Positions 8,218-23,601 of a stretch of 44,780 nucleotides of DNA are shown here, piece by piece. The notes under the pieces were generated by a model. The model saw nothing but the letters and a program-made list of their open reading frames with translations. It had not been told where the DNA came from and searched no databases. Origin of the DNA: a virus; IMG/VR virus record IMGVR_UViG_3300009168_000060, positions 1 to 44,780 of that record; one strand, given 5' to 3'. The position numbers and the translations under genes were made by a program. How positions within the stretch are numbered: position 1 is the first letter of the stretch; each line of letters opens with the position of its first letter.

Positions 8218-10400
8218 TAAAGAAAGTCGATAAAGAAGTTCAGGACGAACTCAAAACAATCCTGAAAAATCTACAGACACGTGACCAAGCTGTACGTGAT
8301 AGACAATTGCGTACATTGAAGTTACTCGACTTGTATTGGAAGAACATACAAAACGTATTTTGGGATGAACGTGCTAAGGACTGGCGTTCTGTTAATGACC
8401 AAGACCTTAACGCGGAACTTGATACTTATTATGCTGATAAAGTCATTAATATTTACCGAGCACATGGTGAGAGCATAATTGCTGCTCTGTCACAGGACTT
8501 ACCATCGACTATATTTGTACCTGACGATGGCGAGAATATAAACGATTGTAGGACTGCTGAAGCATGGTCACAAATATCGGCATTAATCGCAAGACAACAG
8601 AAGTCTATACTACTACTGATTCGTGCATTATACTTGATGTACAACCAGGGAACTGTAGCAGCATACGTATATTCGAAAACAAGTCCGGAAAATGGTCAAT
8701 ACGACGTCCCAACATATGGAAAGAGGACTCAGTACAACGATTTTCATATATGTCCTACTTGTGGTCATGACTTATCAGCTTCTATACGTGATGAGGACGA
8801 AGCTACAACTGATATAGGGCCAACACAATGCGAATACTGTGGTCAGACTGTAATACCAATCATAGACACTGTTGAGGAAGAAGTACCAGCCATAATAGGT
8901 TATGAACAGAAAGATAAACCGCGGCCATGTATTGAAGTTTACGGTAGTTTGAACGTAAGAATTCCACATTTCAATCGTAATCAAAAAGAGTGTGGATACC
9001 TTATATTAGAGACAGAATCTGATAAAGAATACGCACAAGAGATAGCTGGTGACGACATAGCAATAGGAAACAGTGGTAATGAATACGAAACTGGTAGATG
9101 GGCACGTATTGAATCAGAGTTTGATTGGGAAGAAACTGCTGAAATAGTTACATGGCGCCGAGCTTGGTTAAGACCGTGGCAATTTAATAAATCTTCATCG
9201 CCGGAAATGACTAAAAAGCTTAAAAAGTTGTTTCCACATGGCGTTTACATGCTCTTAATGAATGACCAATTTGTGGAATGTGGTGATGAGTCGTTAGATG
9301 ATCATTGGATTCTTACGCAGTCGCCACTTTCTAATTTCGTTCATTCGGAGCCACTTGGTCTTCCTGTAAAACCCGTACAGGATATGAGAAGTGAAGTTGT
9401 GATTTTGCAACTACAGTCAATGGAGTATGGTATACCTGAAACGTGGGCGGACCCTGCTGTAGTAGATTTTGAGAATTATAACAAAACTGAAGCCGCGCCG
9501 GGCCAAGTTTATCCTGTAAAGAGTATGCCGCCTGGTAGAGCATTAGGTGACGCATTTACAACACTAAAAACAGCAGTTTATCCGAAAGAAGCAGAGGAAT
9601 TCAAGAAAACACTGGATGCGGATGGACAATTTGTATTAGGAGATTTTCCATCAATATATGGCGGTGTTCAATCTGGTGGAAGTAAGACCTACGCAGAATA
9701 TAGTGCATCTCAAGCACGGGCCTTACAAAGATTATCAATCAGTTGGAAAGTACTATCTGTATGGTGGGCACAAGTTACAGAGAAAGCTACCCGTATATTC
9801 ATTAACGAAATGCGTGAAGACGAGAAAATGGTCAAGAAGTCTGGTTCTAATTGGGTGAATGTTTGGATTAGAAGGGCGGACCTTCATGGTAAGATAGGTA
9901 GTGTTGAACCTGAGACTAATAGTGCGTTTCCAATGAGTTTTACACAAAAGAAAGACGCTCTCGTAAAACTAATGGAATACAAAGATCCTGCCGTAGTAAG
10001 TGTAATTACGCATCCTGAAAATGCTGGTGTAGTTGCTAAGTATCTCGGCTTTCCTGAGCTGTATATTCCTGGTGATGATAGTCGTAATAAACAGCTTAAC
10101 GAAATTCAGGATATGCTTGAGGGTATTCAAGTTCAAGTAGACCCAGACCTAGATGACCATAATATTGAATACATGGCATGTACTGCATGGATGAACAGTC
10201 CATATGGTCAAGATGCAAAACTAACCAATCTTGAAGGTTTCAATATGGTTAGGGAACATGCACGAGCACATAAAGAGGTAATGGCTGCTTTAGAACAACA
10301 ACAGGCTGAAATGGGTGTTGTTGATGATGCTGAGGGCAAGGAAATAGATCCTTTAGCCCAAACTGAACAAATGGCACAAGGAGATACTAATGTTGCTTAA
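8214..10400 (+). CDS. Portal protein, 728 aa, with zinc-ribbon insertion
   Basis: This is the dodecameric channel at the capsid vertex through which DNA enters and leaves. The call rests on size, position after TerL and before the scaffold, and a typical portal pattern: a helical N-terminal wing, a central region with long helices (DMRSEVVILQLQSMEYGIPE), and a Gln/Glu-rich C-terminal tail. An unusual insertion at about 178-212 holds CPTC and CEYC pairs (C180, C183, C206, C209), a zinc ribbon. The ATG overlaps the previous stop by four bases (ATGA), with no strong ribosome binding site, so coupling is likely. Confidence 0.85.
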   Translation: MIKKVDKEVQDELKTILKNLQTRDQAVRDRQLRTLKLLDLYWKNIQNVFWDERAKDWRSVNDQDLNAELDTYYADKVINIYRAHGESIIAALSQDLPSTIFVPDDGENINDCRTAEAWSQISALIARQQKSILLLIRALYLMYNQGTVAAYVYSKTSPENGQYDVPTYGKRTQYNDFHICPTCGHDLSASIRDEDEATTDIGPTQCEYCGQTVIPIIDTVEEEVPAIIGYEQKDKPRPCIEVYGSLNVRIPHFNRNQKECGYLILETESDKEYAQEIAGDDIAIGNSGNEYETGRWARIESEFDWEETAEIVTWRRAWLRPWQFNKSSSPEMTKKLKKLFPHGVYMLLMNDQFVECGDESLDDHWILTQSPLSNFVHSEPLGLPVKPVQDMRSEVVILQLQSMEYGIPETWADPAVVDFENYNKTEAAPGQVYPVKSMPPGRALGDAFTTLKTAVYPKEAEEFKKTLDADGQFVLGDFPSIYGGVQSGGSKTYAEYSASQARALQRLSISWKVLSVWWAQVTEKATRIFINEMREDEKMVKKSGSNWVNVWIRRADLHGKIGSVEPETNSAFPMSFTQKKDALVKLMEYKDPAVVSVITHPENAGVVAKYLGFPELYIPGDDSRNKQLNEIQDMLEGIQVQVDPDLDDHNIEYMACTAWMNSPYGQDAKLTNLEGFNMVREHARAHKEVMAALEQQQAEMGVVDDAEGKEIDPLAQTEQMAQGDTNVA

Positions 10401-21499: not shown

Positions 21500-22051
21500 A
21501 TGAATAGACTATTACTATTAGCCGTAATTGGTTGTGTAGGTTGTGAACAGACATTCAACTTAACTCCTACATCACCTACTGCACCAAACGATACACCATC
21601 TATTAATATAAACAATACTAATATTAATGTTAACGGTGGTGATAGAAGTGATACTGATAACGACGATACCACACCACCAAACGACTCAAATATCGTTTTA
21701 CCGTTACCTGCATACGGCGAAACTGTGACTCGTAATGTAGCGACCCATAATCCTACGTTACTAGCCAATAGTTGTCAGGATAAATTTGGTGAGCAGGCAT
21801 GGCAATTTCTTGATAGGGTCGTGGCCGAGCTAAAGTCGCATAGTGGTGATACGAGATGGGGTTACTTGTGTAAAGACACAACCTGTACTAAAACGTCACG
21901 AGATGTAGTAGCTTATCGTGCGAGTAATACCGGCATCTGGATAGTCGATGTAATTGGTAATCACTGTCCATTATCAGGTGAAATTACTGAAGTTAGATGG
22001 GGTGTATTACCATTTGAGACGGTAAGAGGTTGGTCAGCGATTCATAAATAG
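21500..22051 (+). CDS. Exported lipoprotein, 183 aa
   Basis: MNRLLLLAVIGCVGC is a signal peptide ending in a lipobox: VIGC (Cys12) is a good match and a second Cys lies at 15, so either could be lipidated. A disordered Thr/Pro/Asn/Asp linker (about 16-70) would hold a globular C-terminal domain (about 85-183) off the membrane; the domain includes RWGYLCKDTTC and IVDVIGNHC with four Cys. I recall a similar RWGY..K....D...IDVIG.H domain in phage proteins of unknown role. An outer-membrane spanin is an alternative but the domain is large for that. Directly upstream of two PEP-CTERM genes. Confidence 0.8.
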   Translation: MNRLLLLAVIGCVGCEQTFNLTPTSPTAPNDTPSININNTNINVNGGDRSDTDNDDTTPPNDSNIVLPLPAYGETVTRNVATHNPTLLANSCQDKFGEQAWQFLDRVVAELKSHSGDTRWGYLCKDTTCTKTSRDVVAYRASNTGIWIVDVIGNHCPLSGEITEVRWGVLPFETVRGWSAIHK

Positions 22052-22123
22052 AAAGGAGGTACACGACGCGTAATTAGGTAAAAGTTCCCTCAGTAAACTC
22101 GGTAAAGACAGGAGCGATGACAA

Positions 22124-22777
22124 ATGAAAAAATTGGTTATGTGTATTTGCTTTACGCTATTCGCATCATCAGCATATTCATTACCCGTCTACGTGATTGG
22201 TAACGAATGTCCGTCTGATGCACAAATGACAGCTACACCAACCTACACTCGTCAGTATTATCTTACACAGGCTATTGCTTGCGTATATGATCCCGGCGAT
22301 AAAAATATACAGGGCACAGATGCTGAGGCGCTTTTCTATTTAGATGGTGGTCCTCAACTTGTATGGGGAGATGGATGGGAAGGCGCTGGACAAAATCCAA
22401 CAGCAAATGGCTTCTCATATACAGCAGATGCCGGTAATGATGATGGTACGTTTATGATTAGTGGCGCATTAGCCGCTGCATACGACCAATTCGCTATTGG
22501 TATTAAAGATGGTCAGAATCCGTATTGGTCTATATTCCTATTACCCGAATTAGTTTTTTCTGGTGATTGGGGATTTGGTACTCAGGAAGGTTCTCTGTCT
22601 CATTTTGCTGTGTTTGGTAGAGTTACTGGTGTGATTAATCCTAATTGCACAGTAGAACCATGTAATCCTCCACCACCTCCGCCGCCTATTAATGAAGTAC
22701 CTGAACCGGCATCGTTGTTTTTAATGGGTACAGGTATCATGTTGTTCGTGCGTAATAAGGTCAAAAATCGTAAATAA
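22124..22777 (+). CDS. PEP-CTERM sorted surface protein, 217 aa
   Basis: An N-terminal signal peptide (MKKLVMCICFTLFASSAYS, cleavage after about residue 19) leads to a beta-rich domain of about 150 residues. A Pro-rich linker (CNPPPPPPPINE) follows. The C-terminal PEP-CTERM signal is VPEPASLFLMGTGIMLFV then RNKVKNRK: PEP motif at about 193-195, membrane helix, basic tail. In the known system an exosortase recognises this signal at the inner membrane and processes the protein for the surface of polysaccharide-producing diderms. The gene has GGAG about ten bases before the ATG. No host chromosomal gene flanks it; neighbours are phage tail and ejection genes. Confidence 0.85.
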   Translation: MKKLVMCICFTLFASSAYSLPVYVIGNECPSDAQMTATPTYTRQYYLTQAIACVYDPGDKNIQGTDAEALFYLDGGPQLVWGDGWEGAGQNPTANGFSYTADAGNDDGTFMISGALAAAYDQFAIGIKDGQNPYWSIFLLPELVFSGDWGFGTQEGSLSHFAVFGRVTGVINPNCTVEPCNPPPPPPPINEVPEPASLFLMGTGIMLFVRNKVKNRK

Positions 22778-22805
22778 CGTCAGTGAAAAGGATTAGGTGA
22801 CAAAA

Positions 22806-23561
22806 ATGAAAAAGTTTATCGTTGTTGCTCTAGTAATGATGCTATCGCTAATCGCCGCACCGGCTAAAGCAGATTTGATTCTTGCCGGTGATGCAGGTGG
22901 CGTATTGTTTTGCGCTACTGACAATAATTCTGTGTGCAATTACGGCACGCAGCTAACTGATACGAATCCTCTTTTGGGGATTTTGTCATTGGCACCTAGT
23001 ACTATTGGTGGTTTGTCAGTAGATGGCTCTTTGCATACTGATACCAACAATGGTATTACCAATATTTTGTCAAGCTCGTCGCTGTCCATTCTAAATCTGA
23101 CTGGAGCAGCTATTGATTTGATGGCATCTATTGGTGCTACTGATTTTACTGGACCTGCTACTACTGGTTTTACTACAGGTTCAGGTACATGGGTCAGTTC
23201 ACAGGGTTCTTCTACCACATACACTTGGTGGAATGATCCGGCTAATAATCAGGGCGGTGAATTTGCTACCGATAGAGAAGGAACACTAATTGATTCATTT
23301 AGTGATGTAGCTGGAGCACAGACTCTAGATTCATTTTCACATAACGGCGGACCATTTGCACTAGCTGATTTTGGTGCATTGTTTTCGATGACATTAGGAT
23401 TCGATATGACTTTGCTAGGTGGTGATTCACTTATTAGCAGAGGTCAGAGTGAAATTGCTGATGTTACTGCTGTTCCTGAGCCTACTTCTATGCTTTTGCT
23501 TGGTAGTGGTTTGGCATATCTCGTTCGTCGTAAGGTAAAGAAGCCTGTCGTAATTGCTTAA
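22806..23561 (+). CDS. Second PEP-CTERM sorted surface protein, 251 aa
   Basis: Signal peptide MKKFIVVALVMMLSLIAAPA-KA (cleavage after about residue 22), then a Ser/Thr/Gly-rich, beta-type extracellular domain of about 200 residues. The C-terminal sorting signal is VPEPTSMLLLGSGLAYLV (PEP about 224-226) followed by the basic RRKVKK and a short tail. The ATG at 22806 has AGGTGA five bases upstream; an in-frame GTG at 22797 would add three residues. It differs from the first PEP-CTERM protein over the whole mature domain, so it is no recent duplicate. A hairpin terminator follows at 23567. Confidence 0.85.
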   Translation: MKKFIVVALVMMLSLIAAPAKADLILAGDAGGVLFCATDNNSVCNYGTQLTDTNPLLGILSLAPSTIGGLSVDGSLHTDTNNGITNILSSSSLSILNLTGAAIDLMASIGATDFTGPATTGFTTGSGTWVSSQGSSTTYTWWNDPANNQGGEFATDREGTLIDSFSDVAGAQTLDSFSHNGGPFALADFGALFSMTLGFDMTLLGGDSLISRGQSEIADVTAVPEPTSMLLLGSGLAYLVRRKVKKPVVIA

Positions 23562-23566
23562 GGATA

Positions 23567-23601
23567 ATGGGGCTGTACTATATTGTGTAGTATGGCCCCA
23601 T
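23567..23601 (+). terminator. Hairpin terminator after the PEP-CTERM genes
   Basis: ATGGGGC (23567-23573) pairs with GCCCCAT (23595-23601), with an inner TACTA/TAGTA helix, six bases after the stop codon. It is followed by AAATAAT, so the U-tract is weak. It separates the exported-protein cassette from the GNAT/ejection genes. Confidence 0.7.

Follow-up and report, generated by a model that had tools for sequence, protein, structure and literature searches.

Two neighbouring genes of an uncultivated phage encode proteins whose C-termini resemble the sorting signal of bacterial exosortase substrates. This raises the question of whether the phage supplies proteins to a sorting enzyme of its host, and of what such proteins would do on an infected cell. 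What is known of exosortase-dependent C-terminal sorting comes from bacteria, where it goes together with exopolysaccharide, and recurrent late substrates borne by phages would make it a pathway that phages exploit.

The PEP-CTERM locus

The window (the whole stretch of DNA analysed, 44,780 bases) contains a terminase, tail genes, a DNA polymerase, a primase, a Sak4-like protein, an exonuclease and a helicase. Since it holds terminase, tail and replication genes, its source is an uncultivated tailed phage and not a chromosome fragment. Contamination by a host contig was rejected on the presence of the terminase, tail, DNA polymerase, primase and helicase genes. No tRNA or Rfam family was found in the window, and no lysis gene was recognised among those of its proteins that were scanned. 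Positions 21500-23561 hold three consecutive genes, LP, PEP1 and PEP2 (Table 1), and the late expression of PEP1 and PEP2 is read from gene order.

Table 1. Features of the locus, with one further gene of the window linked to it by context.
Feature	Position	Strand	Evidence and remarks
LP, predicted lipoprotein, 183 aa	21500-22051	+	Lipobox-like N-terminus MNRLLLLAVIGCVGCEQ; low-complexity Asn/Thr linker, then globular domain
PEP1, PEP-CTERM protein with predicted export signal, 217 aa	22124-22777	+	PF07589 and TIGR02595 above cut-off
PEP1 C-terminal sorting signal VPEPASLFLMGTGIMLFVRNKVKNRK	22697-22774	+	PF07589 match 22697-22750
PEP2, PEP-CTERM protein with predicted export signal, 254 aa from GTG 22797, or 251 aa if read from ATG 22806, which is better placed	22797-23561	+	PF07589 and TIGR02595 above cut-off
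PEP2 C-terminal sorting signal VPEPTSMLLLGSGLAYLVRRKVKKPVVIA	23469-23558	+	PF07589 match 23469-23534
Hairpin, 16 bp, just 3' of PEP2, without T-run	23567-23601	+	Fold energy and relative
DNxLP-repeat protein, 129 aa	2331-2720	+	Homologues adjoin PEP-CTERM genes in several other phages

The initial annotation had read the locus as two adjacent genes with export and PEP-CTERM signals, and had taken scores of both proteins below the threshold of the PEP-CTERM HMM as grounds for rejecting that reading. When the models were run, both proteins were above the Pfam and NCBIfam cut-offs, so the reading was not refuted. PF07589 gave 21.4 bits for PEP1 and 26.2 bits for PEP2 (cut-off 20.7), and TIGR02595 from NCBIfam gave 22.9 and 22.5 (cut-off 16). 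A six-frame PF07589 search of the genome returned exactly two matches, at the PEP1 and PEP2 sites (E 1.2e-6 and 1.6e-7), and none in 14 control genomes. The strict PEP-CTERM motif is found twice in the window and in none of 200 mononucleotide shuffles. N-terminal signal peptides are predicted in PEP1 and PEP2 by pattern and inspection, and the AF2 model of PEP2 has an N-terminal helix at residues 3-14. That the pair is preceded by a lipobox protein was also borne out, by pattern only: in LP a lipobox follows the signal peptide.

No Pfam family besides PEP-CTERM was found in PEP1 or PEP2, and NCBIfam matches were below cut-off and mostly confined to the signal region. In a profile-profile comparison only 29 C-terminal columns of the two proteins align. 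The mature domains are thus, by this comparison, unrelated, as had been claimed, and simple duplication of one gene is ruled out. The base composition of both genes equals that of the phage, so they do not look like very recent acquisitions from a host.

PEP2 is followed by a strong hairpin (-23.6 kcal/mol, z -3.9), whose counterpart in a close relative (-28 kcal/mol, z -5.2) differs by paired base changes. The PEP2 hairpin had been described as a terminator. The hairpin itself stands, but its assignment as a terminator is only partly borne out: there is no T-run after it, and it is missing from the output of the terminator scan.

Conservation, recurrence and placement in other phages

Only one close relative was found, IMGVR_UViG_3300011403_000006 (L004, 46.5 kb). 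There, too, PEP1 precedes PEP2, and the small gene that comes next is shared with the window; it is GNAT-like only below the Pfam cut-off. The PEP-CTERM signals of L004 exceed the PF07589 cut-off. PEP1 (87% identity, dN/dS 0.11) and PEP2 (82% identity, dN/dS 0.24) are evidently under purifying selection, C-terminal signal included. LP was not found in L004. In its place is a 467-aa protein (8523-9926, plus strand) which is glycosidase-like by eye and has no Pfam family above cut-off.

IMG/VR was then scanned with a degenerate DNA pattern for the PEP-CTERM motif, which returned 94 stretches; many of the records are short, so this is no count of phages. The scan gives a lower bound for the signal, yet takes in some possible host flanks. 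In L096, for example, the PEP-CTERM gene adjoins an integrase and may belong to a bacterial flank. The motif forms the C-terminus of a reading frame in all 80 of the loci listed first, and 91 of the 92 other motif-found records pass the PF07589 cut-off. A terminase model matches 24 of 80 records, and an exosortase model matches none of the 80, the window phage among them. Similar tags occur in dozens of other virus records, which suggests that phages often borrow the surface-sorting enzyme of their host. The initial annotation's description of PEP-CTERM signals as normally chromosomal therefore needs a qualifier: the signal recurs in many viral records and is not the curiosity of one phage.

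With the signal removed, 97 proteins (the two of the window included) fall into 54 groups, the largest with 16, 7 and 7 members; the PEP2 group has 7 and the PEP1 group 3. The PEP motif is kept in all aligned relatives, most of which had been found by that motif. A pattern scan of GTDB species genomes with both alignments found no relative of PEP1 or PEP2, which is not proof of absence, and PEP2 has no match in PLSDB. Neither PEP1 nor PEP2 had a match among the isolate phages of INPHARED, and the same held for the capsid protein and for two further PEP-CTERM proteins from phages. A 30-aa motif query also gave no match among isolate phages, probably due to its shortness and the low-complexity filter.

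Judged by gene order, relatives of PEP1 and PEP2 sit in the head and packaging modules of unrelated HK97-type phages. In L033 the terminase, protease-capsid (MCP) and portal genes are followed by a PEP2 relative with a 4-bp overlap with the portal gene. The order in L053 is PEP2 relative, terminase, portal, and in L107 the PEP2 relative lies a few genes away from the terminase. A PEP1 relative (51% identity) is found 6 bp from the head protease-MCP gene of L059. The G+C content of these contigs is 59-68%, versus 40% in the window phage, and on that account PEP-CTERM modules seem to have passed from one phage to another over large distances of relationship. The L059 gene (3747-4361) has a near-identical PEP1-type counterpart in L071 (7353-7772), in which about 65 internal residues are missing.

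Just upstream of its terminase, the window's own lineage (terminase 39-45%, capsid 44-53% identity) has an islet of variable content. PEP-CTERM genes occupy it in L103, L104, L029, L108, L116 and L263, together with a lipoprotein in L103, L104, L029 and L263. In several cases the islet also holds a homologue of the DNxLP-repeat protein of the window or a laminin-G-type lectin gene. LP homologues directly adjoin PEP-CTERM genes in L103/G071 (43% identity) and L104/G043 (36%). Elsewhere, a PEP-CTERM gene comes right after the capsid gene in L163, and in L034 it is followed by a short protein and then a Phage_lysozyme gene. When the lineage was drawn by capsid and terminase, which avoids motif-selected counts, it comprised 50 records. 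As only 5 of the 50 have a PEP-CTERM match, the trait is accessory in the lineage by this count, as expected for genes facing particular hosts or competitors.

Several other features of these records were observed. The DNxLP-repeat protein (PDNTLPGGRPDRPDNSLPGG...) matches no PHROG family, and in several related phages its homologues are neighbours of the terminase or of PEP-CTERM genes. The laminin-G/ConA-like lectin proteins of the terminase-side islet (L108 10314-11243, minus strand, with a Pfam match; L254 8150-8986, plus strand) share a recurring ILQNxxYALPxxPC-like N-terminus. Short proteins in which only this N-terminus is similar are found in the same islet of L244, L149 and L263. In G008 (L014) and G045 (L051, L113) the terminase match spans two TAG codons in both records, possibly through stop-codon reassignment or because the genes are disrupted.

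Probable sorting and possible function

Taken together, the signals point to PEP1 and PEP2 being late phage proteins which a host exosortase sorts to the surface or exopolysaccharide, with processing and final location deduced from the signals. The probability of this is put at roughly 0.75, a figure for the sorting and not for the role. Both proteins would be made late by the phage and exported via the host Sec pathway, and the C-terminal PEP-CTERM signal would then hand them to the exosortase. The enzyme would be that of the host, since the phage encodes none. Through its cleavage or transfer of the proteins, their mature parts would come to lie outside the infected cell, either at its outer surface or within its exopolysaccharide. 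The type of signal thus lends support to what had been proposed from the locus, namely phage-encoded exosortase substrates with a surface destination.

PEP1, PEP2 and LP may alter the outer surface or matrix late in infection. The first choice among possible roles, held tentatively, is that they coat or change surface glycans, so that superinfecting phages or freed progeny would fail to adsorb to the dying cell, debris and matrix. Structure prediction offers a lead here. The PEP2 model, built from seven relatives (pLDDT 77.6, pTM 0.70), is a beta-sandwich with a C-terminal helix. Its residues 22-220 resemble carbohydrate-binding modules (CBM61, CBM6, CBM4) and the Bacteroides surface glycan-binding protein B. 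With VIA-align the best Z was 9.6 (surface glycan-binding protein B), followed by 9.0, 8.6 and 8.4 (CBM61); Foldseek TM-scores were mostly 0.25-0.32 by query. Folds of the CBM type are widespread, however, and at 6-9% identity a Z of 8-10 can reflect a shared arrangement and does not show sugar binding. The Pfam scan of PEP2 found no CBM family in the sequence. Sugar binding by PEP2 is accordingly a lead and not a result. The PEP1 model was unusable (pLDDT 30.8).

A second choice, considered unlikely, is that PEP1 and PEP2 serve egress rather than block adsorption: as partners of lysis they would loosen the matrix and help progeny leave cells embedded in exopolysaccharide. The late placement of the PEP genes and the CBM-like fold of the PEP2 model are compatible with it, as are the PEP-CTERM gene shortly before Phage_lysozyme in L034 and the protein in place of LP in L004, glycosidase-like only by eye. 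However, neither Pfam nor NCBIfam revealed a catalytic domain in the two proteins, and the PEP-CTERM protein that has been studied, PepA, promotes aggregation and not loosening (PMC9850573).

The patchy presence in the lineage (5/50), together with the integrase neighbour of the L096 gene, which may be bacterial flank, could also mean that host matrix genes were acquired by chance and kept as passive cargo without benefit to the phage. This is improbable given that dN/dS is low in both genes (0.11 and 0.24) and that the signal has stayed intact. Members of these families are also found repeatedly in head operons of unrelated phages, in one case with an overlap into the portal gene, and the searches of GTDB species genomes (by pattern) and INPHARED for both proteins, and of PLSDB for PEP2, found no relatives.

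An equally doubtful reading concerns the sorting itself. Since any protein that combines a signal peptide with a basic-tailed C-terminal helix would be held in the membrane, PEP1 and PEP2 might stay and act in the inner membrane with no exosortase involved. Against this, the specific PEP motif and its flanking pattern pass two curated models, and PEP is conserved throughout the aligned relatives, albeit a set found mostly by that motif.

Saturation of the exosortase, by which a late flood of substrates would jam surface sorting in the host, is the least likely of the roles listed in the initial annotation and very improbable in itself: two substrates in tandem and a phage that brings no exosortase would suit it, but a decoy would need only the tag, whereas the mature domains differ from each other and are conserved by purifying selection, and the model of PEP2 is a folded beta-sandwich of CBM-like form.

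Adsorption blocking remains the preferred role for PEP1 and PEP2. Extended to the other records, it gives a wider reading that we would put at somewhat under even odds: many unrelated tailed phages of exopolysaccharide-forming bacteria would carry dedicated, mutually exchanged families of late PEP-CTERM proteins, with which they remodel the surface or matrix of the infected cell by way of the host exosortase, most simply stopping superinfection or loss of progeny. If true, these proteins would form a class of phage surface effectors that has not been described before. Uncultivated phages could then be connected more easily with PEP-CTERM hosts, e.g. floc or biofilm formers, and the substrates would be an experimental handle on how PEP-CTERM proteins act at the surface.

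Relation to known systems

The sorting signal is already known, but phages that use it recurrently have, to judge from the literature found, apparently not been described. No description of phage-borne PEP-CTERM proteins was found in the open full-text literature, a scope that most subscription papers and bioRxiv preprints lie outside. One survey of viruses names TIGR03118 proteins, which bear a putative exosortase signal, among cellular genes that had been transferred (PMC11003980). According to Haft et al. 2006, export of a PEP-CTERM protein leaves it held by the C-terminal helix, and EpsH/exosortase is proposed to recognise it (PMC1569441). The substrates of that system (EpsH, XrtA) are like PEP1 and PEP2: they have a signal peptide, a diverse mature domain with little homology, the PEP motif, a hydrophobic helix and a basic tail. 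However, it was described from bacterial genomes and the word 'phage' is absent from the text (PMC1569441), whereas here the substrates are phage-encoded and the enzyme is absent from the phages.

The flocculation protein PepA (NF033554; Zoogloea, Aquincola) has the sorting signal in common with the phage proteins, and in Aquincola it turns soluble exopolysaccharide into the bound form (PMC9850573). Part of its model is matched, below cut-off (E 9e-10), by the mature domain of the L103 PEP-CTERM protein. PEP1 resembles that model in the signal only, far below cut-off, and PEP2 is below listing.

A different comparison is offered by Llp of phage T5, a phage lipoprotein that blocks the receptor. 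Both Llp and LP (as predicted) are phage-encoded lipoproteins, and a surface role is proposed for LP; the two are likened by type and not by sequence. PEP1 and PEP2 differ from Llp in that they bear a PEP-CTERM signal in place of the lipobox.
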